Assembly (NCBI GenBank): GCA_009602725.1 | Contig: WELB01000010.1 | Coordinates: 100,071-164,070, forward strand | DNA: 64,000 bases | Source of the DNA: Spirogloea muscicola | Taxonomy: Eukaryota > Streptophyta > Zygnematophyceae > Spirogloeales > Spirogloeaceae | Direction of reading: 5' to 3' | Shown here: positions 5,397 to 64,000 of the stretch, in pieces | How the letters are laid out: each line of letters starts with the position of its first letter | How positions within the stretch are numbered: position 1 is the stretch's first letter | Translations under genes and position numbers: made by a program | Notes under the pieces: generated by a model | What the model saw: only the letters and a program-made list of their open reading frames with translations | Database searches by the model: none | What the model was told of the DNA's origin: nothing

Positions 5397-6285
5397 AGCC
5401 ATTGCTAGGAATGGCGAGAGAGAGAGAGACAGAAGAAAGTGCTCGCCTGTAGAGAAGAGGAGGTGGCAAAGCCAGCCCAAAAAGAATGGACAATGTCCAA
5501 AGCCAAAGAAAGCAGTGCCGAAACAGGACAACACTAACAAACACGACAACGCACGAGGGAGGCTCAGTAGAAGAAAGTGCTCGCCCATTGAGAATAGGGG
5601 CTGGAAAAGCCAGCCCAAAAAGAATCAACAAAGGACGAGAAGGGGGCCAGGGGAAGCGCTAAGAAAAACAAGCACACAAAGAAACAAAGCAGCTACGGAT
5701 CACTCAGTAACCCCTGCTAAGCAGCCTCAGGTCAGAGACGCTCAGTAGCCTCCAGTGAGCAACATCAGGTCGGAGTAGCTCGTGGCAGGGGGGGAGAAGG
5801 CGCGCGGGGCGCATGAATTGAAAGGGAGGCCAATTCAAGCCAATACATTGTTCAGGCAGAGTCGAGTGCAGACTAAACAATGCTACATAACACGGAGACC
5901 TAATCTAAGGTACTTAAGATGACATTAGTACCCACGGGCAGGGAAGAAGAAGAAGGGAAGGAGGCACTCTGCCGAGACCCAGAGGCGGCGGCCAGAGCAC
6001 GTCCTGCTCGCGTGTGGACGGCGTGGGCAAGGGATAGTTGGAACGATACCGCCAGGCGCATGCGCAAGACCGGGGCCAACGAACCGGCGGCGTTGAAGCC
6101 GGGCAGCGCCCCTGGCAGACCCGGCCGCCGGTCAATGGCCTGACAGGCAAGCCGCTGGAGGAGATCCAGCCAGCGGCTGCCGAAAGCCCCGTGAACGTCG
6201 ATCGCCAGGGCCGCGAAGTCGTCACCAACCGGGTGGTCCGCATATTTTCGCTCGCTCGGGGGGTTGGAGGCCGGTGGCGGTTTAA
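5397..6285 (-). mobile_element. LINE 3' ends, nested (tails A, A, B and ORF C-terminus)
   Basis: Read on the minus strand, 6285 to about 5925 is the C-terminal end of the retrotransposon ORF. It has YADHPVGDDFAALAIDVHG, then the recurrent MRLAVSFQLSLAHA helix and a RAGRALAAASG segment. A class B tail follows at about 5925-5797. Next comes a second ORF end that closes with a Gly-Tyr-stop near 5740. Two class A tails with the hairpin follow at about 5735-5568 and 5565-5432. The copies are truncated at their 5' ends and placed end to end. This explains the reading frames around 5.4-5.9 kb that look like hydrophobic proteins: they are translated 3' UTR. Confidence 0.85.
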
Positions 6286-6299
6286 GCCCCGGGCCTCGT

Positions 6300-6640
6300 T
6301 CACAATCAGCATTGTCCATTGTCCATCTGTTTTTGGGCGAGCACTTCTGCTTTGCCAGCCCCTCTTCTCTATGGGCGAGCTCTTCTTTTTTGGCCCCTTC
6401 GGACCTCGTCTATTCCCAGCCACCAGTCAACCTGGCCGCGCTTCTCTCTTGTGGCTGGCTGTGAACAGCCAGCCAAAACCGCGTTCCCTGCCCCTTCGCA
6501 ACTTCGTACATTCTTTTCTCTGGGCTGGCCTCGCTCAGCCACCGCCCTCTCCTGGAAGCGTCTTTCTTCTGTTCACAGCCGTCGACCCCTTTTGTTGTTC
6601 TTCTGGGAGAGCCACTTCCAAAATTTTTTTCACAAAAGGG
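6300..6640 (+). repeat. Class A LINE tails, plus orientation
   Basis: Several partial copies of the class A 3' tail lie in sense orientation. One runs up to a GGGCGAGC word near 6335, a second ends near 6375, and a third near 6520 carries GGGCTGGCC with CAGCC a few bases later and a CTGGAAG word. They are diverged and carry no reading frame of their own. Confidence 0.7.
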
Positions 6641-6721
6641 GCGGCCGCGGCTTGAACGGCGCGGCCGCTCCCCAGCCGTCCGGGTCACGCGGTGCACACG
6701 CGAGCGACGGTCTTGAATCAG

Positions 6722-6850
6722 CTCTTCCGAGAGAGAGAGAGAGAAGGCGTGCAGTGCGCATCACATGCAAGGGTGGACATACAAGCCATACAAGCCAACA
6801 CATTGTTCAGGCCAAAAAAGGCAACAGAAGGCAATGGCTGTTAGAGATGG
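6722..6850 (-). repeat. Class B LINE tail bounded by a (GA)n tract
   Basis: On the minus strand this is the class B tail: an ACAATGTGTTGGCTTG-like core, then GCGCAC and GCCTTCTCTC. It ends in a run of TC dinucleotides, seen as GA at about 6728-6744 on the plus strand. It is one of the clearest views of the tail terminus. Confidence 0.7.
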
Positions 6851-6854
6851 ACTT

Positions 6855-7500
6855 TTCAGTAAAGGGCTGCAGTTGGCCAGCCCAGAATGAAGGATGAACA
6901 AAGTTTGAAGGGGCCAGAAAAGCGCTGAAGCACACAGCGACTTAAGTGGCCACTGGGTGCTCAATATCCCCTTGTGAGCAGCCGCAGGTAGGAGAAATTA
7001 TTCTCGGGGTAGCAGGTCCCCTGCCTATGGCTAAAGGCTGCAGCCAAAGCGCGACCGGCACGCAGATGCAACGCGTGTGCCATATGACTCCTGCAGCGGT
7101 ACTGACAGGCGCATGCGCTACACCTGGGCCAGAGAGCCTGCAGCATTGAAGGCGGCCTGCTCACCCTTCGTGACATTGGGATACCAAGCTGCGCACTAGC
7201 CGGTGCAGGAGCTCGTGTTAGCCCCAGAGGATGAACAAGCACCCGCGAGCCTGGCACAGCGCCCACAACGCGCTTAGCTGCTGCCAGCGTGGGGCTTGCG
7301 TGGCGCTTGCATGGCAATGGCCGCGTGCTTCTGGCCCTCACTACCGCATTCGCGTCGGCGGTGAGGTTAGCCCGTAGAGAAACTGCTCTGCCAACGCAAG
7401 GCAATGGCTGTAGAGGCCAGCACCAAGGAATGTACAAGGTCTGGAAGGGCCGGACGGGGCAAAAGCACATTCCGTGACTTCCACGAGGGGGCACTCAGTA
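6855..7500 (-). mobile_element. Two LINE ORF C-terminal fragments with class A tails
   Basis: Minus strand. A diverged ORF end at about 7380-6961 has ALHLRAGRALAAA and closes with YLRLLTRGY-stop at 6961. A class A tail follows at about 6945-6855. A second ORF end closes with LDLLTRGY-stop at 7495 and is followed by a short class A remnant near 7450-7390. The shared closing Leu-Leu-Thr-Arg-Gly-Tyr is the best marker of this element family in the window. Confidence 0.8.
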
Positions 7501-7529
7501 ACCTCTGGTTAGCAAGTCCAGGTCAAAAT

Positions 7530-7910
7530 TGAAGTGAGAAGGCAGTGCGCACAAAGTGAAAGGGATGCCAAGCAAGTACAAGGCGTGGTTCATTCTCTTT
7601 CGGGCTGGCCTCGCACAGCCCTTGCCCATTCCAGAGCTGCTTCTTCGTGATGGCCACAAGAAGGCGATGAGCATGCGCCTGTATTTGAGGACTGCCATCA
7701 GCTAACAGTACACTTGATAGATAGCCATGATAGCAGGTGCGCATAAAATCAAAGGGGCGAAACCGAGCCATTGCAATATGACCAAGAACGCCAGCTGACT
7801 GAAACGAAGTCAACGGCCATGAGAGGAGTTGCGCATAAAATGCAAGGGAGGCCAGAGTAAGCTATTAGTATATGACCAAGGACGTCAGCTGACTGAAATG
7901 ACTGCATACC
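7530..7910. repeat. Tail remnants and a ~95-base imperfect tandem repeat
   Basis: A short class B tail piece (minus) lies near 7530-7585 and a class A tail (plus) near 7597-7640. From about 7735 a unit beginning TGCGCATAAAAT and containing AATATGACCAAGAACG and CAGCTGACTGAAA is followed at about 7827 by a second diverged copy of the same unit. No gene is visible here. ALG5 starts 260 bases further on. Confidence 0.6.
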
Positions 7911-8169: not shown

Positions 8170-11126
8170 ATGGGCTTGGCGCTCAGCAGCCTCTGGCCCA
8201 TGGGACCTTTTGCGGCCGGATGCGCCGTCGCGGTGCGTGGCTGCCGTCACAGCGTTGTTGGGACAGCCTTCCGGCAGGGATAACTGCGGCGTGCCTCTGC
8301 AGGCCAGTCGTCCAAGCCAGGGGGACTCAGCGAAGGGTCCAGCGTCGAGGTCTCGGCAGGGCCTGCTGACTGGAGACGGGGAAAATGCCATCACAGGTGA
8401 CGCTGGCCGTGCTTTGGATTTCCAGCTACATCCTGGACTGGCTCAACCAGCTTGATGCCGGGACAAGGTGACTACCTTCTAGAGCTGCACTGGGTGTGCT
8501 CAACAATGTCACGCGGGCTGTGCACCACTCCTCTTAGTGCTATGACGGGCTTTCTATTGTACTCTTTGTCATTGTCATTGTGTCCTCAAACATTCCTGAT
8601 GCACTCTGTGAAGGACGTTGGGAGCTGAGGCCCACTTTGAGGACCCCACCTCCCTCAACAAGGTATGTTCCTGCGCTTTTACTCCTGTAGGCTTGCTGCA
8701 TTGGAGATCAAGTACGTCCATCAGTACCTTCTCTTCCACTCGCCCGAAGAGCCTGGTTGTGATTTGCATTCTGGTGCGCTGCAGGTGCCACTCCCTTCTA
8801 TCCTGGCGCCTGCTCAGAAGTACCTCTCCCTGGTCACGCCTGCGTTCAACGAGGAGGCCAGGATAGCACCAGCCCTCGATGAGGCCCTGAGGTGTGTCCC
8901 TGATTCTGTGAGTTTGTTGCCAGGCAAGCTTGAAGGGTTTAAGATTTTGAGGGCTTGAGATGCAGGTGCTTGCTCCTTGACCTAGACATGGTCACGCTGT
9001 AGCCGCATGCTCATCCTCATTGGCTGCTAAGAAGTTGGACAGGTTGTGGGTACTAGATAAATTCCACGGCCGGCAGCATGATACATGATACTACCCTGAC
9101 AGATTGGACGGCTCAATGCTCAATGGTCAAGGTACTTGAAGGAGCGGTCGAGGAAGGACAAATTCTTCACATATGAGGTGTGTTGTTCAGCTGACTTGCA
9201 CTTGCCCTGCATCGTCCTACCTTCCGGCCTGGCCAAATATTTGAGTAGTGCAGCTCTTTGGCAAGCCAGGCTTACACGCTTTTCTATCACTTCCTTGTGT
9301 TGTCCTGCATTCTGACAAGCTGCCCATTACCATGGCCACCTTCTTCACCTACTGAAGATCATAGTGGTAGACGATGGGAGCATGGACAATACTGTCAAGG
9401 TGGTGCTGGAGTTTACCAAAAAGTATGGACTTGACACAGTCAGAGTCGTCAAGCAGCATCGGAATCAGGGCAAAGGTGCTGCTGTTCGAAAGGTCAGCAC
9501 CACCCTTTGTTTGTCCTTGCAGAAGTGAGCTCCAATGATGCTACAGTCAAAGTGACCGGTAGTCTCACTAACGTCCTGGCATAGATCCGCCAGCTGAGAA
9601 GATTGTGTCCAGGTAGTGTGTGGCCGTATGACCACCACAGTTGAGTGACATTGCTTAATATTCACCATTACTTGTGGTATTGTGTTATTGTGGTATTGTG
9701 TGGCAGGGAATGCTGTGTGCCCGTGGGGAGTTGATTCTTTTCTTTGACTCAGATGGTGCCACTAAGATTACTGATCTTGAGAAACTTGAGCTAGAAGTAT
9801 GCTCTCAAAGCTCCATACATCTGCACCACTTTGGTTGCCAGATAGTTGACAGGGTATAGCAACAGATGTGGATAGCTAGGATGTTACATTTAATGTTCAC
9901 CAATTACAGCTTACACGAGCACGAAGTAGCCCAGGCTTGTTTGACTTGCATTGCTTAGCGGCCACACTCTCTGCTTCTGGAGCATTAAAAGCACTCTGAA
10001 CCTACAGATTCAAGAAGCTGCCGCTGAAGTCACACTCAAGCACCTGAACTCCAAGACGAGCAAGGAAAAGAATGAAGCTGGTCTTGGGGACATTCCAGCG
10101 GCTGCATTTGGATCACGAGCACATCTTGAAAAGCAGGCTTTAGCAACTGTAAGTACTAATACCGGTTCTGGTTTTATATTGTTCCTCCCCTTATGGGTTG
10201 TCCGTGAGGAGTGCAGCTGTGCACAGCAGGCGTTGTGCAGAGTAGTATACTTGTTGGCACGATGATAATGGCATCTTACTTCGATACCCTTCCATTCCTT
10301 TTCAGAGAAAGTGGTACAGGAATGTGCTCATGCTGGGGTTCCATTGGTGTGTACTGCTTGTTGCGGGATCTGGGGTGCGAGACACACAGGCAAGTATGGT
10401 TAAAGCTTGATTTATTAGATCTACCCTTGAAGAACATGTGAGTGTAGACACACAATTTGAGTGCTCAACATGTAGCTGATAGTAAGTAGCTGGGTTTCAT
10501 TGTGTTGTTCATCATAGGCTGCTAGTATGCAGGCTCTGACGCCTTTAATTAGAGTTTGCTCATGGTAGTACGTTGTTGTTCACATGCTATTTCGAAGTTT
10601 GCCAGTGATGTGCCTGACATCAACTCTGTTTTTACCATGTCTGCAACTTCTTTGTTGTTATCAGTGTGGCTTCAAGATGTTTACACGTTCTGCTGCGAAG
10701 CTGCTGTTCTTCAATCAACGATTAAACAGGCAAGCAATAAAAGCTAATTGAAAGATTCCAGCTGGCAATCGCCCTGAATAGTAACCGAAACTGAAGCACT
10801 GGACATGGAGTATCGGCCTTTTTCGGTTTTCGTTTTGCAGTATGAAGTGCATGTTGCAGTCCTGAGTGGTATTCTTCAGCCTGCGCACTTTTGGTAAGGG
10901 AATTGAAGATAATCTGTAATGCAGGTGGTGCTTTGATGTTGAGCTCGTCTACTTGTGCAAGCGCTTGAAAGTGCCCATCCGGGAGGTCTCTGTAACATGG
11001 ACAGAGATACCCGGATCAAAGATTAGAATCACAAGTATCTTACACATGCTCTTAGAGATGGCATTGATTCGTTTAGGATATGGTTTCCGCTTTTGGAGAA
11101 TACATCGTGGCTTCTTAAAGCTATGA
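8170..11126 (+). CDS. ALG5: Dolichyl-phosphate beta-glucosyltransferase ALG5
   Basis: ALG5 moves glucose from UDP-glucose to dolichyl phosphate at the ER membrane and so supplies the donor for glucosylation of N-glycan precursors. Eleven exons close in phase and give 350 residues, close to the family's usual length: 8170-8232, 8397-8467, 8614-8662, 8785-8891, 9132-9177, 9358-9492, 9707-9796, 10008-10148, 10306-10389, 10665-10729, 10925-11126. An N-terminal membrane helix is split over exons 1 and 2. GT2 motifs follow: SLVTPAFNEE, then VVVDDGSMDNT, then HRNQGKGAA, then FFDSDGAT with its DxD-like site, then AGSGVRDTQCGFK and VELVYLCKRL. The C-terminus is a basic helical tail. Introns 9 and 10 start with GC instead of GT, both in the context AG/GCAAG. 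The start is the first Met in frame. Confidence 0.95.
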
Positions 11127-12285: not shown

Positions 12286-12289
12286 GCTT

Positions 12290-13375
12290 CTTGAAAATCA
12301 AAAAGCTGGAAGCTACAATGAGTTGCCGTTCAAAGTGCATTGAACGGCACCAGGTCACAACAATCAGCAGCCGGAAAGGAGTTGCCCCAAAAATGCCAAA
12401 GGCAGCTGCCAGGACACGGCCAGCACGAAGATGCAAGGCAAAGGCCAGGGATCGCTGCAGCAAATTGGTCAGCCGCATATAAGACACAAGGGTCAGGAAG
12501 ACTGCGGCCTTGAGGTCCCGCTGCTCCCCCTGCCCTTTCCGGCAGGACACTGCTTGTCACTCAAGCGGCTGCAGGAAGTCAAGCAACCAAGCCTTCAACG
12601 GCCTAAGCGGCTGCAGGAAGTCAAGCAACCAAGCCTTCAACGGCCTCGGAGGTCTACTGCGAGTGGGTTCCTCCTCCATCTTGTGGTCGGCGTACTTTAG
12701 GTCCGACTTTTTTGGCATGCGCAAAGGAGAAGCTCTCCTAAAGGGACAGTGAAAGGGCCCATCCCAAAAGGAGAAGGTATGTGGAGCACAGGGAATGAAG
12801 GGAGGCCAGATCAAGCCAACATTGTATTTCAGGCAAAAGCCAGTGTTAAGAATGGGTCTATGGTAAGCAAAGCCCTACTGGAAAGGCGTTGATGTGTGCC
12901 AAAGGTGGCTGAAGGGAGCCTTTCAACTCACGAGAAAGCACAGATCAGAAGGAAGAGTCTTCCAGTAGAGGGCGAGGGCACCGATCCGACAGGCTAACTA
13001 GGGGTGCTGGAGAACGGCCACAGAATCCAGCGGCTTGAGTTTGTGGTCGCCCAGCACGCCTCCTGGATAGCCAAGCTACAAAGCGCTGCAAAAAAACCTG
13101 ATAAGGTCCGAAGGTGCCCGACAGCGGCAACCACAAGACCACATAAGTGGCCAGTACAAGTGGGTGCGCACCGCTCGCCTTCTCTTCATTCTTGTCCATT
13201 CTTGTCCATTCTTTTCTGGGCTGGCTTTGCTAGCCCCTCTTTTTCTATGGGCGAGCAATTTCTCTCCGCAAGCCGTAGTCAAAAAGTTGTCGCCATCAAC
13301 CTCGGAAGTGGAAGGCTCCATCCAGTAGATGGCGACGGCTGTGATTGGCTCGGCCGCCAGCTGGCTGGGCCGCCA
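12290..13375. repeat. LINE debris with a 42-base tandem duplication
   Basis: A diverged LINE ORF C-terminus lies on the minus strand at about 12550-12340 (RSLAFALHLRAGRVLAAAFG). At about 12562-12645 a 42-base unit starting AAGCGGCTGCAGG is present twice, almost identically. A class B tail (minus) lies at about 12870-12715. Class A pieces follow: minus near 12950-13010, plus near 13190-13260 with a GGGCTGGC...GCTAGCCC hairpin, and minus near 13310-13360. Confidence 0.65.
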
Positions 13376-22974: not shown

Positions 22975-23725
22975 TGTAACCTTAGGCGCGCTGCACCTGC
23001 GTGCCGGCAGAAATTGCTCGCCCATTGAGAATAGGGGCTGGAAATGCCAGCCCAAGAATCAACAAAGGACCAGAAGGGGGCCAGGGGAAGCGCTAAGAAG
23101 AACAAGCACACAAAGAAACAAAGCAGCTACGGATCACTCAGTAACCCCTGCTAAGCAGCCTGAGGTCAGGAACGCTAGGCTCCTGGAAGTGGGTCCCCTG
23201 GCCAGAGCCAGAGGTTTAGCAGAGAAAGAGCTCGCCCATTGAGGATAGGGGCTGGAAAAGCCAGCCCAAAAAAGAATGAACAAAGTACGAGAAGGGGGCC
23301 AGGGGAAGCGCTAAGAAAAAACAAGCACACAAAGAAACAAAGCAGCTACAAATCACTCAGTAACCCCTGCAAAGCAACCGCAGGTCGGAGATGCTAGGCT
23401 CCTGGAAGTGGGTCCCCTGGCCAGAGCAAGAGGCAGTAGCGAGGGCTCTGCCGGCACGAAGGTGCAGCGCCCGGGCCAAAGACCTCTGCAGCGAGACGGC
23501 CAGGCGCATACGGCACACTTGCGCCAGCGACCCGGCTGCAGGAAAGTCTACCGGCTCCCCACGGAAGCGACGGGCGATGGGACCTGCGGGCCGGCAGAAG
23601 AAAGTGCTCGCCCATTGAGAATAGGGGCTGGAAAAGCCAGCCCAAAAAAGAATGAACAGAGTACGAGAAGGGGGCCAGGGCAAGCGCTAAGAAAAACAAG
23701 CACACAGAGAACACAGCAGCCCTCG
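22975..23725 (-). mobile_element. Three class A LINE 3' ends in a row
   Basis: Three minus-strand units each contain the class A tail with the hairpin, at 23035-23054, 23248-23267 and 23624-23643. The first two tails are preceded on the minus strand by an ORF end closing in a Gly-Tyr-stop. The middle unit has the longest coding part (about 23600-23390, VCRMRLAVSLQRSLARALHL). Two of the tails end exactly against the same coding word of another copy (see findings). Confidence 0.8.
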
Positions 23726-24715
23726 CTGATGCCTCTGGCTCTGGCCAGGGGACCCACTTCCAGGAGCCTGGCGTCTCTGAGGTGCGCTGGCCGTCTCGCT
23801 TCAGCGGTCAATGTCCCGCGCGCTGCACCTGCGGGCCGGCAGAGCCATCGCTGCTGCCTCTGGCTCTGGCCAGGGGACCCACTTCCAGGAGCCTAGCGTC
23901 TTTGACCTGAGGCTGCTTAGCAGGGGTTACTGAGTGATCTGTAGCTCTGGCTCATCGCAGACGTCGTCACCACTGACAGCTTTGCGTCCAGCAGAGCAAA
24001 AAGCTCGTCGGAGGAGGCGGGCTACGCAGTCGGCCAAGCGGCGGGCGAGAAGGAACGGAAGTACTCGGACCACCCGGTGGGCGACGAGTTCGTTCCACTG
24101 GCAGTGGACGTGCACGGAGCCTTCGGCTCCAAATGGCTTGACTTGCTCCACCGCCTGGCGCGGCGTGCAGCGGCCCGCCGCCTCGGGCAGCAGGGCGAGC
24201 AGCCCGGCTTCAACGTAGCCGGGTCCCTTGCTCAGGTTTTCCGTATGCGTTTGGCCGTCTCGATGCAGCGGTCCCTCGCCTTCGCAATTCATTTGCGCGC
24301 AGGCCGAGCTTTGGCGGCGGCCTCCGGCTTCCGTCAGGGCGACGTCTTTCCGCCAGCTAGCTTCTCGGACCTGCATCTCCTGTCTGTGGGCCACTCCAGC
24401 ATTCCGCAGGCCTTAGTTGCATATTATAGAATGCGGCTCTCGCTTAGTTTGCAGCGCTCGCAAGCATTGGCTCTTCATCAACGTGCAGGGCGTGCTCTAA
24501 GTCAGGCCTCTGGCAAGTTAGCTTGTCAGATTTGTTTGTGCTCACCCGTGGGTACTAATGTCATCTTAGGTACCTTAGATTAGGTCTCCGTGTTATGTAG
24601 CATTGTTTAGTCTGCACTCGACTCTGCCTGAACAATGTATTGGCTTGAATTGGCCTCCCTTTCAATTCATGCGCCCCGCGCGCCTTCTCTCTGTCTAGAG
24701 GTTACTGAGCGTTCC
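23726..24715 (+). mobile_element. LINE ORF C-termini with class B tail
   Basis: Plus strand. A short ORF end at 23726-23932 closes LRLLSRGY-stop. A longer fragment runs to the stop near 24582, with YSDHPVGDEFVPLAVDVHG, RLARRAAARRLGQQGEQPGF, MRLAVSMQRSLAFAIHLRAG and a duplicated end module (MRLSLSLQRSQALALHQRAG). The class B tail follows at about 24583-24705, with the CCTGAACAATGTATTGGCTT core and the CGCGCGCCTTCTCTC end. Confidence 0.85.
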
Positions 24716-25080
24716 CTGGCTGATGTCTTAGTCCTAGTCGTTCGCACTCAGGCTCCCTCAGACTTTGTCCATTCTTTTGGGCTGGCCTTTCCCAGCCACC
24801 AGTCAATCTGGCCGCGCTTCCTTTTGTTTCTTTGTGTGCTTGTTTTTCTTAGCGCTTCCCCTGGCCCTCTTCTCGTCCTTTGTTGATTCTTTTTTGGGCT
24901 GGCTTTTCCAGCCCCTATTCTCAATGGGCGAGCACTTTCTTCTTAGGCACCTTGGTTTCGCTTTCCGTAGTATGTAGCCCCTATTTAGTTGGCCCTAGAC
25001 TCTGCCTGAACAATGTATCGGCTTGAATTGGCCTCCATTTCATTTCATGCGCCCCGCGCGCCTTCCTAGTCTCCTCCTCC
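24716..25080 (+). repeat. Class A and B tails, plus orientation
   Basis: Class A tails with hairpins lie near 24778-24797 and 24895-24913, the second ending GGGCGAGCACTTTCTT. A class B tail follows at about 24950-25072. No coding part is left. Confidence 0.75.
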
Positions 25081-25432: not shown

Positions 25433-26834
25433 ATGGCAGCAGCTCCGCCACCCTGTGCAGGCTGCCGGACCGTCCACGCAGCTGGCCGTTGCAGCCCCAC
25501 CGTAATCGCCACGAGGCAGCCTCCCCACCTTCGGCGCTCGACGGTGGGCCTCTGCGGTGCTGCCATACCTGCGCTCGGCCAGAAAGTCACCAGATGGCAC
25601 GGCGACGTCGCACAGAGGTCGAGGGCGCGCGGCCCGACTGAACCTGCTGCATCGGCAGCTCTTGAGGCGCTGCCTTTTCCGGACGGCCCCGTGGGCGTGG
25701 TCGTTGTGGACCACGGCTCGCGGCGCGAAGAGTCCAACCGCCTCCTATGTGCGCAGCTGAGCCCCCTCCAGCGCGCTCCAGACTTGGTAGCGCTGCCGTC
25801 CCACCTTGAGCGTCACAGGACGCAGCATCGGATTCGTTGACAATTAGCGACTCGTGTCTTTGTGCTCTCGTGCCGAGGCCAGTGACTACGTCCAAGAAAA
25901 CGCGCAACATGAGGCCTCTGACCTGATGGCTCTGTGGCGGCGGCAATGACAGATGCTTTCGTGGAGCTCTACAAGGAGCAGAGCGGCCGTCACCTCGTTG
26001 AGCCTGCGCATATGGTAATGCTGCAGCACCAACCGAGCCCGGCTTCTTTCATTGCAGTCTGGCTGCTAGTCCAGAGTAGCAGGTTGCTCCTAAATTTAGG
26101 GCTTGGGATGGCTGCTCAGCTTGGTCACTCAGCGTCGAAGGACGGCAGAGCTTCCTCAAACTGATGCAATTGATGTCCGTGCAGGCCAAATGTTCTCACG
26201 AAAGCGATGCTTGAACATCTGGCTGCAGGAGCTGGCGGAGCCATCCATTGCGCAGGCCTTTGACCGATGTGTAGAGCAGGGCGCACGCTGCGTGGTCGTG
26301 AGCCCCTACTTCCTCTCGCCAGGCCGACACTGGAGCCAGGTGTTGCAGACTACGAAGTGCATAGGCTGTCGCAACAATGACATTAAGCTTTGCTCGTTGC
26401 GTTACTCGTAAATGTAAACTCCTTTCTAATTAGTATCACTTATGCCCAGTGGCCCTTGACCTTATATCTAGTTTCTGCCCTTGACCTTACATCTAGTTTC
26501 TGCTTTATATGCAGGACATTCCCGCACTGACTGCGGAGGCTGCAAGCAAGCACCCGGGCATTGGGTTCCTTGTGACAGCTCCCATTGGGGTGCACAAACT
26601 TGTGGCGGTAAGCTACAGCTGGCTCTCCCTAATTTTGTAAGCCTTCGCACGAGCAACTTTGTGCAGGTGGCAGTTGGCTGAAAAGAACTGCTGCAATTTG
26701 TATGCCATCCTATTTGCCAGCAAGTCGTGGAGGAGCGGATTGAGCACTGCATGAGTCAAGTGAGGGATACAACAAATAAGTGCGACATCTGCCGTGGCAC
26801 CGACAAGTGCGCCTACCATATCGCAAAGCTTTGA
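25433..26834 (+). CDS. SIRB: Sirohydrochlorin ferrochelatase SirB (plastid)
   Basis: SirB inserts Fe2+ into sirohydrochlorin to make siroheme, the cofactor of plastid nitrite and sulfite reductases. Five exons close in phase to 231 residues: 25433-25748, 25953-26014, 26229-26339, 26515-26607, 26721-26834. About 85 residues of Ala/Arg-rich sequence precede the domain, which fits a plastid transit peptide. The domain shows VVVVDHGSRREESN, VEPAHMELAEPSI (joined exactly across exons 2 and 3), VVVSPYFLSPGRHWSQ with the metal-site His, and LVTAPIGVHKLV. The C-terminus has NKCDICRGTDKC, like the Cys motif by which plant SirB binds an iron-sulfur cluster. Upstream, near 25109-25140, a short CCCTCCGCCAAA repeat occurs. 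Confidence 0.94.
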
Positions 26835-28039: not shown

Positions 28040-28610
28040 TATACTAGGAGGGCCGGAGGTGCCACAGAGCGGGGGGAGCCGTGCCGACGGGGACCATGTC
28101 GACTCGACCTGTACCGCTTGTGGAGCTGCTAGAGGAAGAGAAGGCGAGCAGTGCGCAGAGGAGGGTGCAATGGCCATAAAAGCGGCTGCTGATATTAAAA
28201 AATCGGCCTGTAAACTGCCAGCCAGATGCATACAGGTGTTCATGACGGAGCCAAAGGCTAGGCAGACAGAAGGGAGGGCGGGGGGTGGAGAAAAAGAATG
28301 CGGCTGCTGATATAAAAGAATCTGCTGTAAACTGCCAGCCAAATGTGACGGAGCCAAAGAAAGAAAATGCGGCTGCTGATATTTAAAGAATCGGATGTTA
28401 ATTGCCAGCCAGATGCATACAGGTGTTCATGACGGAGCCAAAGGCTAGGCAGACAGGGCGCCCTCAATACCCCCGTTGTCAGCAGTAGGAAGTCAGATGA
28501 ACCGAGGGGAGGAAGAAAGTGCTCGCCCATTGAGAATAGGGGCTGGAAAAGCCAGCCCAAAAAAGAATTAACAATGGACGAGAAGGGGGCCAGGGGAAGA
28601 GCCCTTCGGC
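28040..28610 (-). repeat. Class D tails in series and a class A tail
   Basis: On the minus strand the class D tail is present as a full copy at about 28490-28370. It has GGGGTATTGAGGGCGCCCTG, ACACCTGTATGCATCTGGC, TTTACAGC and ATATCAGCAGCCGC. Two shorter copies lie at about 28370-28300 and 28270-28180. A class A tail follows upstream at 28610-28505 (hairpin 28539-28558). The piece at 28047-28135 also occurs at about 30770-30860. Confidence 0.75.
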
Positions 28611-46794: not shown

Positions 46795-47165
46795 TCGTTA
46801 GAGTGTGTAGTGTGAGTGTACCCTCTCTATTGGGCTGGCCTCTAACAGCCATTGATTGTCTTACGTTGAGAGAGCTGTAACCTTGTGGGCTAAGCCTTGT
46901 TCGTTCCTTCTGGGCTGGCTTGCCGAAAGAAAGTGCTCGCCCATGAGGGACTGGCAAAGCCAGCCCAAGAAGAATGGACAATGTCCAACGCCAAAGGAAG
47001 AGGTGCCGAAAAGGGACTACACTACAAACCACGGCAAAAAACACACGACGATGCAAAGGGAAGCTCAGTACCCGCGAGTGAGCAACATCAGGTCGAAATC
47101 GCTGGCTGCAGGGAACGAGGCACTCCACCGAGCCTGTCACGGCCACTACCCTGCATTGGTTGAGC
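46795..47165. repeat. Class A LINE tails in both orientations
   Basis: A sense class A tail lies near 46820-46870 (GGGCTGGCCTCTAACAGCC). A second sense start near 46908 runs straight into an antisense copy at 46925-46985 (GGGACTGGCAAAGCCAGCCC). An ORF end on the minus strand follows near 47065-47100. No usable frame remains. Confidence 0.7.
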
Positions 47166-52974: not shown

Positions 52975-53125
52975 TCAATTGTGGCTGCTGATCTCAAAAG
53001 AGCGGCTGTAGAAGGCCAGCCAGATGCATATAGGTGTTCTGCCTGGCTGTCTCAGTCTCTCATGTGACAGAAGACGAGATAGGTATGCAAGTAGCCTCAA
53101 TACCCATCGTGAGCGAGTCTTCTGC
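52975..53125 (-). repeat. Class D LINE tail, diverged
   Basis: The minus strand reads GGGTATTGAGG, ACACCTATATGCATCTGGCT, TCTACAGCCGCTCTTTTGAG and ATCAGCAGCC, in the class D order. It lies directly upstream of the CCCH gene start and so could overlap its promoter. Confidence 0.65.
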
Positions 53126-53660: not shown

Positions 53661-54515
53661 CGTAATTTGGCCCCTTCGGACCCTGTTTTTGGGCTGGCCT
53701 CTCACAGCCCTAGCTCTCAGTGGGAGGGGCCACTTACTTTCTTTTGTTAACTTTGGATTCCGTTTGGTCTAGCCCCATTCATCGCATTAGCTTCTGCACA
53801 AGGGTAGTTCCATGCTTTTGCGCCTTTCAGCCCTTTCAGACCTTGTACATTCCTCTGGGCTGCCCTTTCACAGCCGCTAGGCGAGCACTTCTCCCTTTCA
53901 AGCCATACGTGCGGCGTCTGGGCGTGGTCACCACCCCCCAGGGCGGTGGGCCTCGTCTGCTCTTGGACGTGGTACTGATTGACGCACACAAGGCTGGCGC
54001 ACCAACGTCAACCGTGTCTGGCTGGGCCACGTCCAGCGCGGAGCGCAAGAAGGAGCGACACTACCAGGACCATCCTCGAGGGGACCATCCTTACCCGTGT
54101 GCCATGGATATCTACGGAGGCTACGGCGTGAAATGGTCCTCCCTGATCCAACATCTGGCCCGGCTGGTTGATGTGCGCCGTCGAAGTGGGGGGGGGCAGC
54201 TTGGGCCACTCCAGCATTCCGCAGGCCTTAGTTGCATACTATAGAATGCGGCTCTCGCTTAGTTTGCAGCGCTCGCAAGCATTGGCTCTTCATCAGCTCT
54301 TTCTTGGCGGCGCTCCAGCTCCAAGTTAGCTTGTCAGATTAATTTGTGCTCGCCCGTGGGTACTAATCTCACCTTAGGCACCTTACTTAAGGTCTCCGTA
54401 GTATGTAGCCTTTGTTAAACTGCCCTATAGACTCTGCCTGAACAATGTATTGGCTTGAATTGGCCTCCCATTCATTTCATGCGCCCCGCGCGCCTTCTCT
54501 CTTTCACAGCTGTTG
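53660..54515 (+). mobile_element. LINE fragment: class A tails, endonuclease end, class B tail
   Basis: Class A tails lie near 53690-53740 and 53855-53900. The ORF fragment that follows reads VRRLGVVTTPQGGGPRLLLD and VVLIDAHKAG (endonuclease core). It continues with AERKKERHYQDHPRGDHPYP, AMDIYGGYGVKWSSLIQHLA and an end module, partly cut. A class B tail runs from about 54350 to 54505. Confidence 0.85.
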
Positions 54516-54559
54516 CCGTAAATTGGAAGAGCTGTTCCTTTCGTGAGGAGCAATGCACT

Positions 54560-55170
54560 GTCTCGACTTCGATCCTTGTCAGTCTTTCGCGGGCTGGCTT
54601 CTCACAGCCCTTGCCCCCATTTGGGAGAGCCACTTCCCTTCGCACTCAATCGGTCCCACTCGTCGATCACGCGCACCGCGCGCCTTTCCCCCCGCCAGCC
54701 CGCCAGCCCCGCCAGTCCGCCGACGCCGCCACCGCCGCCACAGCTGCCGCGCTCGACGCCGCCACAGCCGTTCCATAGAAGCCAGCCGGCGATGCCGCCG
54801 CCGTCGCCGCCGCCGCGGCCGCCGCCGCCGCCGGGGCTCGGGGTGAGGGCCAGGGGGGGAGGGGGGGCTGCCTCTGCGCGCCCTCGATTTGGTTGAGCAT
54901 TCGAGGGGGCGACGTGACGCCTGATCAACGAGTGACCAATTGATCCTCGTGCTGACTCCCGGATGCTCCTCAGTTGTACTTGGAATGCCAAAGAGCCTTC
55001 CTCCACCTCGGCTGCAGGGCCGGCCAGGCAAGGGAAGCGCAAGGGAAGAAAAGAAGAAAGCGGCTGCTGATATGAAAGAATCGGCTGTGAAATGCCAGCC
55101 AGATGCATACAGGTGTTCATGACGGAGCCAAAGGCTAGGCAGACAGGGCGCCCTCAATACCCCCGTGTCA
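54560..55170. repeat. Class A tail (+), GC-rich block, class D tail (-)
   Basis: A sense class A tail lies near 54590-54640 (GGGCTGGCTTCTCACAGCCC). A GCC-rich block at 54690-54850 with no supported gene follows. A short LINE piece (minus) lies at 54955-55030. A class D tail on the minus strand lies at 55165-55045. Confidence 0.65.
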
Positions 55171-57000: not shown

Positions 57001-57004
57001 ATTC

Positions 57005-57545
57005 ATGCATCGATTAGTGACCTTTATGTTTTGACCCGTGGTTATTGAGCGGGTCAATCTGCTGTAGGTTATGTAGATCATTAGATGTGCTTGCCTTGTA
57101 CTTGGCCATTTGGCTTACATTTGTTTCTAATACACGGAATTCTCCTTCCCTTCCTCTCCTTGGAGATCCGCAGCTGGCGCTGGCCATCCTTACTCGCTGC
57201 ATTGGTCAACGAGCTGGCTACATGCAGCGAACAGTCGCCCCAACGGACATGGTGGGCGAGCTGTACAAGGAGTTCGACACCTTCCTCCTGCAAACCCTGG
57301 CTTCCCTGATTCAACATTCATCCTTCCCCTCACCTTCGACCTCCCAGCAGGCATCCCTTCCCTTTTGCAGCAGCCTCTGGTTTGCGCAGCGGGGTTGCTC
57401 TTCCTCCCCTCAGCTCATCTGACTTCCTACTGCTGACACGGGGGTATTGAGGGCGCCCTGTCTGCATAGCCTGTCTCCGTCATGAACACCTGTATGCATC
57501 TGGCTGGCAATTTACAGCCGATTCTTTAAATATCAGCAGCCTGTC
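57005..57545 (+). mobile_element. Class C tail, reverse-transcriptase end fragment and class D tail
   Basis: A sense class C tail (57005-57135) follows a very short ORF end (LYVLTRGY-stop near 57045). Next comes a fragment with LGDPQLALAILTRCIGQRAG and ELYKEFDTFLLQTLASLIQH (C-terminal part of the RT region). The class D tail lies at 57420-57540. Confidence 0.75.
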
Positions 57546-60050
57546 CAAAACCCACCTTCGCCTGCTCAACCGGTGGACCTGGACCCGGCTGTCTTCCGTC
57601 GGGCGATTGTGAGTAGCCGCAAGGCAGTCGCCGGGGGTCCATTGGGCATGCTCTTTCAGCACTTGCGGGAGCTGTATGGGGAGGACGACTCGGAGGATTT
57701 CGATCTGCTGCTTAGGGTCGCGCAACATGTTGCGCGTGGACACCTCACCCATCGTGTAGGCGCAGTCCTCTGCACAAGCAATTTCATTGCTTTGCAGAAG
57801 GACAGCGGGGGAGTGCGTCCTATCTCGATGGGGGAGGTTCTGTCGCGCCTCGTGGGGCGCATCCTATAATTATGCAGATCCAGGAGGATGCCCAGGCGCA
57901 CTTCCATCCCCACCAGTTTGGGGCTGGGATGCGTGCTGGCGCTGAGACCCTGGTGCACGGGGTATGAGCGGCACTGGATGTCAATCCCCATTGGCTGGCC
58001 TTGAGCGTGGACGTACAGAACGCCTTCAACTCCGTGGATCGGCAGGTTTTGCCGAGGAGCTAAGGCAGTACTTTCCCACACTCCTCCCTCACTTCCGCTG
58101 CATGTATGGCTCGCCATCTGCATTGTTGTGGGGGGCAGGGACTTCTTTGGCTGTTCTGCAGTCAAAGACGGGGACACGCCAAGGTGATCCAATGGATGGT
58201 TTCCTCTTCGCTCTGGCCCATCACCGTGCTTTGCGCAACACGGCGAGCGCTCACCCTGGCGTTCTCCTCCCGAGCTATGCGGATGATACCACGCTCCTCG
58301 GCCCCCCAGAGGAGGTGCTGCGAGCTTTCGGCACGCTTCAGCACCAGCTCCAGCTTATCGGGCTTGGGGTCAATCCGGCTAAGTGCTCTGCCTGGTCCCC
58401 CATTGGCATCCCCCTTTCCCTCTTCCCCTCGTTGCCGACATCTTGTCAGACTCCAGAGGGCGGCTTGAGGATCTTGGGAGTGCCACTAGGCGACCCGTCT
58501 TTCTCGGAGGGTGCTGTCCTTGCTCGTCGCCAAGGATACATGCAGGTCCTGCCAGAGCTCCCCAGCCTTGGGGACTCTCAGTTGGCAGTGGCCATTATGA
58601 CCAGGGGTGTAGCACAGCGGCCGTGCTACCTCCTGCGTACGGTCTCACCATCGGTCAGCTTGGATGCTATCTATGCATCCATTGATGTCAAGCTTCAGCA
58701 ATGCCTTGCTGATCTGATTGCTCACCCACTCCCAGAGCAGTCTCCAGCAGCACTGGTGCAATGTACGCTGCTCATACGCCACGGTGGGCTTGGTTGTCGC
58801 CCCTTGGTCCGCTTATGCAGACCAGCGTACCTTGGCTGCTGGGCTCAAGTGGCTTCGTCCATATCTGGACGATTCCTCCTTGAGCAACAATGTGTACTGG
58901 CGCCTCACATCAGTAACGTGGTTCAGGGGAGTCTGCCTTTCCAAGTGACTCTCAAAGAATGCCAACAGGACCTCTTCGCCGCATACCCGCCTCTGGTGAA
59001 TGAGCCTGTTAGTTTTGCTGCCTGGGCTGACGTTTCTGATGTTAAGGCTCAATCGCGGTTTTTCCATGCTGCAGATGAGCAACCACTGGAACATCTCCGG
59101 AGTCTCCTCCAAGGGGATGCTCGAGGCCAGGCTCGGCTCCTATCTGTTTCGTCTCTGGGAGCGTCTGAGTGGCTCCGCGCTTTGCCTTCGCATGCGGGCT
59201 TGCGGATGGAAAATGCTCTTTTTTGCGATGCTATGCGCCGCCGCCTTGGCTTACCATCCCTGTGCTTGGCAGGGGTGACCCAATGTGAATGTGGGCTTAT
59301 TGAGCATGATGCATTGCTCATGGGTGACCACATGCTCAGGTGTGCCAGAGGCAGTGAGTGCACGGGCTCCCACAACCTCCTACGTGACGCCATGTATGGC
59401 ATCGTCAAGGAGGTGGCATATCAAGTGGCGTTGGAGAGCACCGGGGTGATGCCCGTCCAACTCCGCAACGGGGTCCCTCGGACGAACGTTCTCCTGGGAG
59501 GTGGTAAGCGGCTCCTCATGGACGTCGTCCTAACCGACAGCTTCCGGATGAAGGGCCCCATTACTTTTGAGACCGGCTATGCCGTGAAGGTGGCCGAACA
59601 GAAGAAATTGCACAAGTACAAGGACCACCAGGCGGGTGATACCTTTTACACCCTGGCCATGGATATCCATGGGTGTTACAGGGGTCGGTGGTCCTCGTTA
59701 CATTTGCTGCTGGCCTCTCAAGCTGACCAGCGGCGCCGGGAACAGGGTGCAGCCCTTCCCGGTGGCTCGGCCCCTTTGGATCTTGTTTCCTGCTACCCAA
59801 TGCGTCTATCTGTGTGCCTACAGCGGTCCCAGGCAATTGCTTTGCATCGCCGGGCTGGTCGCGCCCTTGCAGCAGCCTCTGGTTTGTGCAGCGGGGTTGC
59901 TCTTCCTCCCCTCAGCTTCATCTGACTTCCTACTGCTGACACGGGGGTATTGAGGGCGCCCTGTCTGCCTAGCCTTTGGCTCCGTCATGAACACCTGTAT
60001 GCATCTGGCTGGCAGTTTACAGCCGATTCTTGAATATCAGCAGCCGCTTT
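57545..60050 (+). mobile_element. Longest LINE copy: reverse transcriptase, CCHC motif, restriction-like endonuclease, class D tail
   Basis: A first frame (to about 57869) reads FRRAIVSSRKAVAGGPLGML and SGGVRPISMGEVLSRLVG, the entry to the RT domain. After breaks near 57869 and 57965, RT motifs continue as LALSVDVQNAFNSVDRQ, then TRQGDPMDGFLFALAHHRAL, SYADDTTLLGPPEEV and LGVNPAKCSAW. The frame open from about 58050 to the stop at 59925 continues through GGLRILGVPLGD and a helical thumb-like part. It then has the CCHC motif (QCECGLIEHDALLMGDH with CARGSE) and KRLLMDVVLTDSFR. AEQKKLHKYKDHQAGDTFYT, MDIHGCYRGRWSSLHLL and the MRLSVCLQRSQAIALHRRAG end close the ORF. The class D tail ends near 60045. 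There is no N-terminal APE-type endonuclease in view, so this is an RLE-type non-LTR retrotransposon. It is 5' truncated with at least two frame breaks. Confidence 0.9.
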
Positions 60051-61335
60051 GGCTTTCCCACACGAATGGGTAGCCTGGGCTGCCGATCACTTGAAGAGAC
60101 GGCGCAGGCAGCCTTTCTCGGTTGCTGGCACCAGGTTGCCTCCCTCCTCCCCTTGCGCTTCCCGTGTCTGGTGGGCCCAGCAGCCGAGGTGGAGCAAGGC
60201 TCCTTCGCCTTCCAAGTGCAATTGAGGAGCATCCAGGAGTCAGCAATCTGCTCCTTCCCCTGCAACCCCTTCTCACCCCCTTCTTAGCGCTGGCCCAAGC
60301 ACCGGACAAAGCGGCACAGGCCAGACTCGTTGCTGCAGTTGAGGATGAGCGTTGCAAGTCGCTGAGGACGATGCCAGATATCAGTACCAATCCAAGGAGT
60401 CTGGCACGTCTCACATCGCTCGCAACAACTGCGGCATTGGACTGGCTTACAACGCACGCCATCCACAACGCTTTCAGATTCAGCCCCGAGGCATTCTGGA
60501 CGCTTCTCCAGCTGTTCCTCGGCCTACCCCCGACCTGTCTGATTAGAGTAACTCATTATGAGTGCTGCTTCCGTGCGGAGGGCGGAGACCTTGCCACCCA
60601 CATGCTGCGGTTTCCCACAGGCCCGGAGGTGGTGGGCGTCCATAACCTCCTACAGGACACCCTGGCTGGCCTGATGCGCGACGCCGGCTACTGCGCCATT
60701 GTGGAAGTAAGCAACGCAATGCCCATCACCACGAAGTCCCAGGGACGCCATCATCGTCGCACCCTGGACATTGTGGGTGTACAACCTGGCGGTGGCCCAC
60801 GCGCCTTGGTGGACGTGGTGGTGACGGAGGCATACAAGAGCTCCGCTTCCACACACATGGCTGGCCACGCAGTGAGAGGTGCTGAGCAGAGAAAGCTCCG
60901 ACACTACTCTGACTAACCCTGCAGCGCTAACCTCCTACCGGCAGCAATCGACACCTTTGGCTGCATGGGCCCTCGCTTCCACACCTTACTGCAGAATATT
61001 TCAAGCTTGGGGTACGCCCGACGTGAGGATAGGCTTCCAGCTCAGATGAGCATGCCGGCAGCCTATTTGTCATTCTTGCATCGTCGTGGGTCAACTTGTC
61101 TGCAGCGAGCTCAGGCTCATGCGTTGCATCAGAAAGCTGGTCAAGCCTTAGCTTTAGCTCAAGAGCTTGTCGATTGACGTCCAGTACTCGAGCATCAGTT
61201 AGCGACCTCTATGTGCTGACTCGTGGTTACTGAGCGGGTCAGCTGAGCAGCAGGTGACGTACATATAACAATGTGCTTGCTTTTGTTCTTGGCCACACAT
61301 GGCCCTCCATCTCTTTATACACACGCATTCTCTTC
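60050..61335 (+). mobile_element. LINE copy with class C tail
   Basis: The plus strand from about 60270 reads LARLTSLATTAALDWLTTHA, ECCFRAEGGDLATHMLRFPT (the zinc motif with its second Cys altered) and RRTLDIVGVQPGGGPRALVD with DVVVTEAYKSSA. It continues with GAEQRKLRHYSD to a stop at 60916. The remaining end (FGCMGPRFHTLLQNISSLGY, HALHQKAGQALA) continues in another frame. LYVLTRGY-stop lies near 61230, then the class C tail to about 61335. Confidence 0.85.
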
Positions 61336-61544
61336 TGGGACGCCACCTACTTATACAAAGTAGTAAGCAGCCGAAGAGAGCGCTCTCTTTTGGCTCAACG
61401 AGATATTGCTCTTGAACAGAGCTCTTGATAGCTACTCTGTCAGATTTGAGGCTCCTCACTCGTTGCTATTGAGTGATTCATCCTACCCTGTTTTCAGAAT
61501 TGCGCTTTTGGCCCCTTCCTACTTTGGCCCCTTCGAACCTTGGC

Positions 61545-61950
61545 AAATCTTTCGGCTGGCTTCTCACAGCCCTTGCCCCATTGAGAGAGCCACTTCTCTT
61601 GAACGAAGGGGAGGGCAGGCTCAGACGGATGGTCGGGACTAACAGGGTGGAGCACATACAAATTCGACGGGCTATTTTGGGAAGTTGGAGCAACGCCACG
61701 GAAGCCAGTGGCCTGTTTAAGAGAGAAGGCGCGCGGAGCGCATGAAATGATAGGGTGGCTTATCAAAGCCAATACATTTCAGGCAAAAGCTAATGCACAA
61801 AGTCGTGCTACATAAATTGAAGCTCAAGACTTCAGGTGGCTAAGATAACAGTGTGACGTTAGTACCCGCAAGTGAGCACATCAAAGAGAGGAAGAGGCTT
61901 CCAGGAGTGGGCGGTGGCTGGGAGAGGCCAGCCCAAAGAAATGATGAACA
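61545..61950. repeat. Class A (+), class B (-) and class A (-) tails
   Basis: A sense class A tail lies at 61553-61610 (GGCTGGCTTCTCACAGCCC, then ATTGAGAGAGCCACTTCTC). A minus class B tail lies at about 61860-61725. A minus class A remnant lies at 61945-61885 (GGGCTGGCCTCTCCCAGCC when reversed). Confidence 0.7.
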
Positions 61951-62284
61951 TAAAAACCCGACAGGTTAACTCGGGGAGCCGGTGCGCCGCCACGGAAGCC
62001 GAAGTTCTAGGAGCGCACCCAGCACTTTGATGAAAAGTGTGGCACAGACTGGCGGAGCTGACGAGAGCGCCAGCCGGGAGGAGAAAATGGAGAGCAACGG
62101 AGTCTTGAGGGGCCTGAGTAGAGGCCACGTCCAAAGGCGAAGGCGAGGATGAGTAGGTGATAAGGGCAGGCGCGCACGAACTGGGGGTCGCGGCGTCATG
62201 CGCAAGCGGCAGATACGGAGATCTCGGGGCTGGACGTCGCGGCGGGCGGCGGGGTGGGGCGCCCGTACCAGCCGCCGCGCGGCG

Positions 62285-62770
62285 CGGTGCGGAGGTGGAA
62301 ATGCGTGTATATTAAGAGATGGGGAGGCCATGTGTGGCCAAGTACAAAGGCAAGCACATTGGACAAATGTACGTCACCTGCTGCTAAGCTGACCCGCTCA
62401 GTAACCACGAGTCAGCACATAGAGGTCGCTAGCTGACGCTCGAATACCGGACGGCAATTGACTAGCTCTTGTGCCAGCAGCTAAGGCTCGACCAGCTTTC
62501 TGATGCAGAGCATACGCCTGAGCTCGTTGCAGACAGGTTGACACTCGACGTCGCAGAAATGACAGATTGGCTGCCGGCATACATACGGAGGTGGAGGTGC
62601 GCGCAGCGGCACTGTTGTTGGTCTTCGACTTAGGAAAAAGCTCGCCCATAGAAGAGGGGCTGGCAGAAGCCAGCCAAAAAAGAATGGACCATTGCCAAAG
62701 AGCTACAGGAGAATCACTTAGTAACCTTTGCTAAGCAGCCGCAGGTCGGAGATGCTAGGCTTCGACTAAG
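62285..62770 (-). mobile_element. Class C LINE end and class A tail
   Basis: The minus strand holds an ORF end (MPAANLSFLRRRVSTCLQRA, YALHQKAGRALA, LYVLTRGY-stop near 62398) and a class C tail to about 62290. It is nearly the same sequence as 56230-56500. A class A tail with the ORF end of another copy lies at 62765-62640. Confidence 0.8.
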
Positions 62771-64000
62771 CGCTTTTCTGGCCCCTTTAAATGTTATGCA
62801 CTCCTTTCTTCTGGGCTGGCCAATAACAGCCATCGCCCTCAACTGGAAGTTAAAAGAAGAGTATCTCTCTTTTCTGGCTCCTTTGATCTTCGCCTCCTCT
62901 CCTGGAAGCGTCTTTCTTTCTTCGATCTTGGATCATTCCGTTTTCTTTCTTCTTTCACCTTGACCACCTTAGGATAGCGCTCATTTCAGGTAGCCCCACG
63001 TTTTGCACTAGCTTTCGCCTGAACAGTGTATTGCTAAAGCTGGCCACTCTTTCGTTCATGTGCTCCGCGGGCCTTATTCTGCGCTGATCACAGCCATCGC
63101 CCTCTTTGGAAGAGTCTCACTCTCTTTCATTCTCTCTTCCTAAATTCTTGCGGCGGCGGTAACAACAAGCGAGCTCGTCCAAGGGGGGCGGGGTCTGTAA
63201 ATGGCCAGCCCATATAGAAAGAACACGGTCAGAAGGGCCGAATGTCGCCAGAACACACAGCTATGCAAGAGACTACAGCGCATCTGACAATACCTGTCTC
63301 AGCGAGCGGGTACCTGTCTCAGCGTCAGTACCTGTCTCAGCGGTCCCCGGAGAGTCCGCTGCGCCGCGCGGCGATCGCCGAGAGATGCGGCGAGATCCAC
63401 GGAGCTCGCGCCGCCGCAGCCGCTTCTGCGCTTGGGCGCCGCGGCGCGCCGCGCGGCCGGCGAGGCGCGAGGTCGCGGCGGGCCGCGGCGGGGGGTTTAA
63501 ATCCTCACGATAATTCTCACTGGGCGAGCTACTTTCTTCCGATAATCACTCTCTAGGCTGGCCAATCACAGCCATCCCCCAAGTTTGAAAGAAGTCTCTT
63601 TTCCTTTCCAAGCCCCTCGGAGTCTTTGGTGGGGCGTGCGGGATCAGACGAAGGCTCACGCGGTGTGCGTGCATCGGGAGACCTTTTTACACCTGGTACA
63701 TTCCTTCGGGCTGGTCTCACAGCCATTGCCTTACATTGGAAGAGCTGTTTCCTAGAGGGAGGCCTATTTACGCCGATACACCTTTCAGACAGGAAGCCAG
63801 TGCAAAAATTGGGGCTACCCAATGCGGAGCTTTGCGCTGAGGGGGGGCTGAGGTGACAGAGCAAAAGCGGGAACAATGGGGGCTTTGAGTTCCGCGATCA
63901 CGAATGAGCACACATCGTATTCGACAGGCTAAGTTGGGCAGCCGGAAAGGGTTTGAAAGGAGGCGCGCGGTGCACATAAGATGAGAGGGAGGCCAAAGCA
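62771..64000. repeat. Series of class A tails, one class B tail at the window edge
   Basis: Sense class A tails recur near 62812-62860, 63540-63600 and 63705-63750, with further partial pieces near 62890, 63090 and 63180 (minus). A GC-rich block at 63350-63500 shows TACCTGTCTCAGCG repeated three times just before it (63290-63345). A class B tail (minus) begins at about 63955 and runs off the window. Confidence 0.65.

Follow-up and report, generated by a model that had tools for sequence, protein, structure and literature searches.

A near-invariant hairpin close to the 3' end of sister LINE families in Spirogloea muscicola, a candidate handle for RNA recognition

Introduction

The choice of RNA by proteins of long interspersed nuclear elements (LINEs) is known for few elements. 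In the UnaL2 and ZfL2 proteins, an endonuclease (EN) domain of the apurinic-like type precedes the reverse transcriptase (RT). Published reports describe general recognition of the stem and specific recognition of the loop in ZfL2 (PMC4176376), and, in R2, a 3' untranslated region (3'UTR) of low sequence conservation, the RNA of which is indispensable for protein recognition and is recognized mainly by structure (PMC12203849). L1 and short interspersed nuclear elements (SINEs) of green plants are reported to have a conserved 3'-end hairpin, in which stem changes are compensated and the letters of the loop and flank are conserved (PMC3747384). Dualen/RandI elements are described as LINEs with a restriction-like endonuclease (RLE) (PMC4640811) and as present in green algae (PMC8226300). 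Proteins of this group combine an APE domain with the RLE. The present study deals with a short hairpin in the tails of a retroelement group (class A and the families B, C, and D) in a 64,000-nt stretch of the green alga Spirogloea muscicola (contig WELB01000010.1, positions 100,071 to 164,070 of the forward strand; hereafter the window) and in the 153-Mb genome that was searched with it. This hairpin, located in the untranslated tail of sister LINEs close to its 3' end, is probably a recognition handle by which the RNA is selected and placed for target-primed reverse transcription.

No title naming such a tail was found among the papers listed, which is not evidence that the tail is unpublished.

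Form and copy number of the tail hairpin

In the element sense, the class A tail consists of a T-rich stretch, often with TTGTYCATTC, the hairpin GGCTGG-loop-CAGCC, and 25-30 subfamily-specific bases: CTATTCTCAATGGGCGAGCACTTTCTT in A0, CCAGTCAATCTGGCCGCGCTTTC in A1, and TTGCCCCCATTGGGAGAGCCACTTC in A4. The window contained 22 sense-strand class A hairpins with five core positions paired (13 on the + strand and 9 on the - strand; a G.U pair in two of the 22), in good agreement with the original prediction of approximately 20 such tails, the quoted coordinates of which were each matched within 2 bases. Four further hairpins with the same core belonged to the B tail (Table 1). The conserved word proposed downstream of the hairpin was confirmed beyond shuffles for GGGCGAGCACTTTCT (16 window matches with up to 3 mismatches; shuffle mean of 2.6, and 0/100 shuffles reaching 16), while the result for TTGGAAGAGC was weaker (11 matches with up to 1 mismatch against 6.0 expected; 3/100 shuffles reaching 11). 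The description of the loops as varying freely was partly right: they were mostly mixed within the smaller class A groups (4-10 tails each) and tied to the subfamily in A0 (CTTTTC in 35/47 tails) and A1 (CCTTTCC in 14/25 tails).

GGCTGGN6CAGCC gave 18,652 genome matches (28 for the reversed control), a count in which palindromic copies score on both strands. The oriented pattern GGCTGGCYTYTCACAGCC was found in 6,217 exact copies (0 in the control) and, with up to 2 mismatches, in 26,924 copies (12 in the control), and the upstream word ACCTTGTCCATTC alone gave 3,247 copies (6 in the control). When 20 tails were picked by this upstream word alone, the stem was intact in 10, had one change in four, two in two, and three in one, and no recognisable hairpin was seen in three; at least 9 of 10 stem letters were thus kept in 14/20 and 7-8 of 10 in three.

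LINE frames and proteins behind the tail

Among 359 kb scanned, 72 frames ended in an SDLxxLxRGY-like motif, and a hairpin was located within 150 nt past the stop codon in 64 of them (A/B-type, 46; C-type, 5; D-type, 13; the patterns were loose, and a few are chance matches). Several of the other eight frames, in which no hairpin was found within 150 nt, were cut by another insertion. Identities to the B-family protein were 54% for the C-family protein, 43% for the A0-family C-terminus, and 33% for the D-family piece. Since the frames end just before the hairpin and the proteins are related, the tail corresponds to the LINE 3'UTR in a set of sister families.

These families encode RT, a C-terminal Cys/His knuckle-like motif, and an endonuclease-like segment. 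Pfam RVT_1 was detected in three of four proteins scanned (E=6.1e-10, 2e-12, and 2.2e-7), the fourth being a C-terminal piece, and in the B copy of the window (E=6.9e-7). In a PDB search with a five-protein profile, R2 proteins ranked first (E=0.0013 and 0.0017), followed by another RNA-directed DNA polymerase (0.044) and L1 (0.077). A knuckle-like CX1CX12HX3C was aligned by eye before the endonuclease-like segment in the A0, B, and C proteins. The CCHC knuckle of RLE LINEs is described with the spacing CX2-3CX7-8HX4C before the endonuclease (PMC5678591), and this published spacing was not kept in the A0, B, and C proteins. Conserved LDVV...LLLDVVLIDAY-like segments were seen by eye at the C-terminus, the place of the PD-(D/E)XK restriction-like endonuclease fold in RLE LINEs, where no profile matched. 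A structure prediction of the B protein, made with window sequences only, reached a mean predicted local distance difference test score of 35.8 and was not used.

In a genome protein search, in which 150 of 15,137 candidates were scored, many of the best-scoring B-family copies shared 86-90% identity with the copy in the window, and open frames of 1,300-1,488 amino acids were kept in some (two larger figures, probably runs through N, were set aside). The element copies were dispersed over many contigs, and many LINE copies in the window were truncated and nested. The high identities and the open frames suggest that at least one of the sister LINE families is a recently active element that was recently amplified.

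Position at the 3' end and comparison between families

A GGCY..RGCC hairpin was present in the last 75 nt of 8/8 representative tails from the four independent groups (four from A, D and D' from D, plus B and C) against 1.3-7.5% of shuffles; the motif was chosen after the tails were seen, and each 3' end was placed at the point where the likeness between copies ceases. The 3' side of the hairpin ended 26-30 nt before the tail 3' end (37 nt in C), and A0 copies were alike until 28-29 nt past the stem, after which neither poly(A) nor any other repeat followed. The hairpin core was common to the A and B tails, which were otherwise no more alike than shuffles: A0 and B aligned best over the hairpin itself, with a score at the 95% point of shuffles. 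Arms were 97% identical against a mean of 68% in other columns, in a set whose selection for intact arms inflates this contrast.

The C and D hairpins were found at a place similar to that in A/B, with the arms GGCT/GGCC and GGCC/GGCC, respectively, and the fourth pair was U-A in A/B, U.G in C, and C-G in D. If these hairpins are homologous, the fourth pair would have changed from U-A through U.G to C-G, as compensated changes usually do, and covariation would have occurred between families rather than between copies. Such between-family covariation is possible but unproven, and, in spite of the similar position, the common YUGGCY 5' arm, and proteins of one group, we consider it unlikely. Alignment through the hairpin of both tails was obtained only for A with A and D with D' among those compared; A0-D and C-D' scored above shuffles outside the hairpin. 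Furthermore, the hairpin was absent from the computed folds of C and D, which speaks against homology, and present in that of D'. The argument concerns one pair in a handful of families. A still wider proposal, in which one ancient 3' hairpin runs through an entire group of RLE LINEs, with the first three pairs as a fixed handle, the fourth pair having moved (U-A, U.G, and C-G), and the loop as a family-specific key that separates the RNAs of sister LINEs sharing one genome, is similarly doubtful.

Covariation tests and computed folds

The arms of the hairpin had been described as different between copies and yet complementary. In fact, the main forms shared identical arm letters and differed in stem length and loop: the arms of GGGCTGG-CTTTT-CCAGCCC had the same letters as those of GGGCTG-GCCTCTCA-CAGCCC and GGCTG-GCCAATAA-CAGCC, GGGCTGG-AAAAG-CCAGCCC was not a separate form but the antisense reading of the first of these, and the wobble case at 13219 (TAGCC) turned out to be a one-sided G.U change. 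Palindromic repeats that are read on both strands can mimic covariation; the question is decided by how often compensated doubles occur, which was at chance here.

The genome-wide counts, made with the oriented pattern, covered pairs 2 and 3 of the five core pairs. At the third pair (C-G), 6,217 copies were unchanged, and one-sided U.G, one-sided C.A, and compensated U-A were found in 90, 142, and 3 copies, respectively, with 2.1 compensated copies expected for independent arms. At the second pair (G-C), the 3' side was changed in 143 copies and A.C was found in 126; compensated A-U occurred in 3 among the 100 of 143 listed, with 2.0 expected. The A7-type GGTTGGCTTTGCCAGCC, in which the third pair is U.G, was present in 698 genome copies, while its compensated U-A form was found in 3. 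These 698 copies probably represent an inherited subfamily, and a change that keeps pairing in RNA but not in the DNA palindrome is therefore tolerated. In A7, the two recurrent stem changes, GGTTG and TAGCC, each leave a G.U pair in the RNA strand. Within class A, no subfamily was seen with a compensated pair fixed.

Several of the results weigh against the hairpin as a recognition handle. Compensated doubles at pairs 2 and 3 taken together numbered 6 against 4.1 expected (P=0.23), and one-sided changes that kept the pair (~229) did not outnumber those that broke it (268; P=0.09, in the opposite direction) genome-wide. Among 191 anchor sites unfiltered on the stem, one row had a single change in both arms, at different pairs, against 2.7 such rows expected; the sole same-pair double among anchor sites came from a low-scoring site (L002) that did not look tail-like. 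Stem changes were, therefore, no more paired than expected from drift of one ancestral palindrome, the outcome named in the original prediction as contrary to it, both for core pairs 2 and 3 genome-wide and in the 191 anchor-selected sites. Pair-breaking stem changes also recurred (four rows with CAGCA and two with GAGCC), in part at copies with the tail broken off at that point. The hairpin-less or weak tails among the 20 picked by the upstream word fit dead copies, but would also be expected of a dispensable element. The folds of whole tails were mostly no more stable than those of shuffles (12 z-scores, +1.34 to -2.55), and the hairpin was missing from the folds of B, C, D, and the tails at 6495 and 62790 (5/12). 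It was included in the minimum-energy fold of the other 7/12 tails: one A0, one A7, A1, D', 53650, 54560, and L042.

In the folds of the tails at 6495-6570 and 62790-62885 (+ strand), a shifted hairpin, UGGC/GCCA inside GGGC/GCCC, replaced GGCUG/CAGCC.

RNAalifold drew a 4-pair stem from 36 rows, most of which had been chosen because their hairpin was intact; the covariation term was +0.09, and the sole source of the "both sides changed" cell was a row (L043:1655-1725:+) that is not a tail, so that this cell was discarded. An alignment of 109 rows was made from anchor matches with at least 9/10 arm letters (123/191) minus 14 near-duplicates; since its rows were chosen for intact arms, it is blind to a two-sided core change. 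RNAalifold returned a structure for it only when non-pairing rows carried no penalty, and a tree-based test on it, with 60 alignments as the null, revealed no covarying column pair in the rest of the tail (best E=1.0 among 3,081 pairs). An outer helix around the hairpin, in which the upstream TTGTYCATTC would pair with AATGGGCGAGC, had been drawn from single-sequence folds and the penalty-free consensus, and was rejected as lacking support: the tree-based test was negative, and pairing was as good between swapped partners as between true ones (three samplings; P=0.2, 0.32, and 0.22). A wobble asymmetry, which might have indicated selection for G.U (C>T in 14 and G>A in 4 of the sampled changes, P=0.03), was rejected as well because it failed genome-wide (~229 against 268); most of the C>T rows behind it came from two A7 variants.

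Rfam yielded no match at the gathering score in the whole window, and the five matches between 52900 and 64000 at E up to 10 were far below the gathering score, none of them over a tail hairpin. Mimicry of a histone-type stem-loop was set aside, with nothing for it in the Rfam scan or among the papers listed, and no further search aimed at mimicry.

The core stem is near-invariant, and its arms do not co-vary at the tested pairs. This pattern may be read as that of a neutral relic, in which the ancestral palindrome of closely related families had no time to change and the hairpin is functionless; stem changes did behave as independent decay, and the hairpin was not found in all computed folds. 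We nevertheless regard a relic as quite unlikely because the arms are far more alike than other columns (with the inflation noted above), A and B tails share the hairpin only while their proteins are 43% identical, and half of the tails picked by the upstream word retain an intact stem. Alternatively, GGCTGG and CAGCC may be protein-binding words or a signal for transcript 3'-end formation, with complementarity being secondary. The near-invariant letters and the lack of a compensated pair fixed in any class A subfamily agree with this, as does the abundance of GGTTGGCTTTGCCAGCC over its compensated form, in that pairing brought in no new letters. On the other hand, the recurrent A7 changes keep a G.U pair in RNA, and families C and D show a possible hairpin of different letters at a comparable position; a signal of sequence rather than structure is thus rather unlikely.

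Proposed role of the hairpin

The original prediction took the tail as a structured RNA end used by the RT of the element itself. The co-varying arms on which it was based were not found; the proposal is still the best reading because the tail is a LINE 3'UTR, has no poly(A) end, and keeps the core where the rest of the tail is not kept. By analogy with stringent-type LINEs and R2, the LINE protein would most likely bind the 3' hairpin, should this form in RNA, and thereby select its own RNA. Binding would also position the RNA so that reverse transcription starts properly at the nicked target during transposition. The stem would be read as a near-fixed sequence together with its shape, while the loop, for which a role is conceivable, and the 20-30 bases behind it differ more. 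With sister families, thousands of copies, one stem, and several loops, a model of general stem recognition and specific loop recognition is directly testable.

Feature coordinates and neighbourhood

Table 1. Tail hairpins and LINE frames in the window
Feature	Position	Strand	Remark
A0 tail hairpin GGGCTGG-CTTTT-CCAGCCC (element sense)	5598..5616	-	tail end ...GGGCGAGCACTTTCTT
Class A tail hairpin	6523..6540	+	A2-type downstream segment
Class A tail hairpin GGGCTG-GCCAACTG-CAGCCC	6864..6883	-	
Class A tail hairpin	7602..7621	+	
A7 tail hairpin	13218..13236	+	one G.U pair (TAGCC)
A0 tail hairpin	23035..23053	-	loop CATTT
A0 tail hairpin	23249..23267	-	~90 nt past LINE-frame stop codon
A0 tail hairpin	23625..23643	-	
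A1 tail hairpin GGCTGG-CCTTTC-CCAGCC	24780..24797	+	
A0 tail hairpin	24896..24914	+	
A0 tail hairpin	28540..28558	-	
Class A tail hairpin	46833..46850	+	
A7 tail hairpin	46948..46966	-	one G.U pair (CAGTC)
Class A tail hairpin GGGCTG-GCCTCTCA-CAGCCC	53691..53710	+	
Class A tail hairpin	53858..53875	+	
A4 tail hairpin	54591..54610	+	
A4 tail hairpin	61554..61571	+	behind frame ending SDLRLLTRCY*
Class A tail hairpin	61916..61933	-	A2-type downstream segment
A7 tail hairpin	62658..62675	-	
A6 tail hairpin GGCTG-GCCAATAA-CAGCC	62814..62831	+	
Class A tail hairpin	63556..63573	+	
A3 tail hairpin	63709..63724	+	loop shortened
B-family tail hairpin	53004..53021	-	
B-family tail hairpin	55083..55100	-	
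B-family tail hairpin GGCTG-GCAATTTA-CAGCC	57502..57519	+	
B-family tail hairpin GGCTG-GCAGTTTA-CAGCC	60007..60024	+	at end of B LINE; absent from computed fold
C-family tail hairpin GGCT-TGAATT-GGCC	24642..24655	+	fourth pair U.G; absent from computed fold
C-family tail hairpin GGCTTGAATTGGCC	54452..54465	+	
D-family tail hairpin GGCC-ACACAT-GGCC	61291..61304	+	fourth pair C-G; absent from computed fold
A0-family LINE frame, C-terminal end ..SISDLRLLCRGY*, then A0 3'UTR	23357..23590	-	upper limit approximate, by eye
B-family LINE frame	57946..59925	+	partial RT, knuckle-like CX1CX12HX3C, endonuclease-like C-terminus; incomplete copy

The B tail contains a second possible 3' arm, CAGCAGCC, ~17 nt past the hairpin, and the 5' arm could pair with either (57502-57540 and 60007-60047, + strand). 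In the C tail, a further GC-rich palindrome, ATGCGC-NNC-GCGCGC, was found right before the 3' end (24642-24692 and 54452-54500, + strand).

At 54200-54640 and 23000-25070, LINE copies were nested and head to tail, and class A tails were often located near other LINE 3' ends; a preference for such ends as targets is possible. A frame piece resembling a Pif1-type helicase (by eye) at 28851-29310 (- strand) adjoined an N stretch (29311-29772), and short interstitial repeats of the CCCTAAA kind (plant-type telomere) were found at 28825-28860. Host genes, assigned by eye only, included a COQ3-like methyltransferase (1000-2690, + strand), an ALG5-like glycosyltransferase (8390-10100, + strand), a mitochondrial carrier (19750-21300, - strand), and a sirohydrochlorin chelatase-like protein (25680-26900, + strand).

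Comparison with described LINE tails

R2 is a LINE with a C-terminal endonuclease, to which the endonuclease-like C-terminus seen here may correspond, and R2 proteins were the best matches of solved structure in the profile search. The R2 clade proper inserts in 28S rDNA; the present copies are dispersed over many contigs. The R2 3'UTR is described as poorly conserved in sequence and recognized mainly by structure (PMC12203849), whereas the stem sequence is fixed here. The conserved hairpin at the LINE 3' end is shared with L1 and SINEs of green plants, in which, as reported (PMC3747384), the relationship is reversed: in the present tails, the stem is fixed and the loop is changing. Repeats such as (ATT)n, given there for the 3' end of RandI (PMC3747384), do not follow the A0 tail.

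The tails of stringent-type LINEs (UnaL2, ZfL2-1, and ZfL2-2) are similar in having a short stem-loop near the 3' end and in that poly(A) is not needed. The features of this type, a conserved stem-loop near the 3' end and no poly(A), were both found at the sequence level in the present tails, and computed folds agreed in 7/12. UnaL2 and ZfL2 tails end in short repeats, unlike the tails in this study. General recognition of the stem and specific recognition of the loop, as reported for ZfL2 (PMC4176376), resemble the fixed stem and changing loops of the S. muscicola tails.

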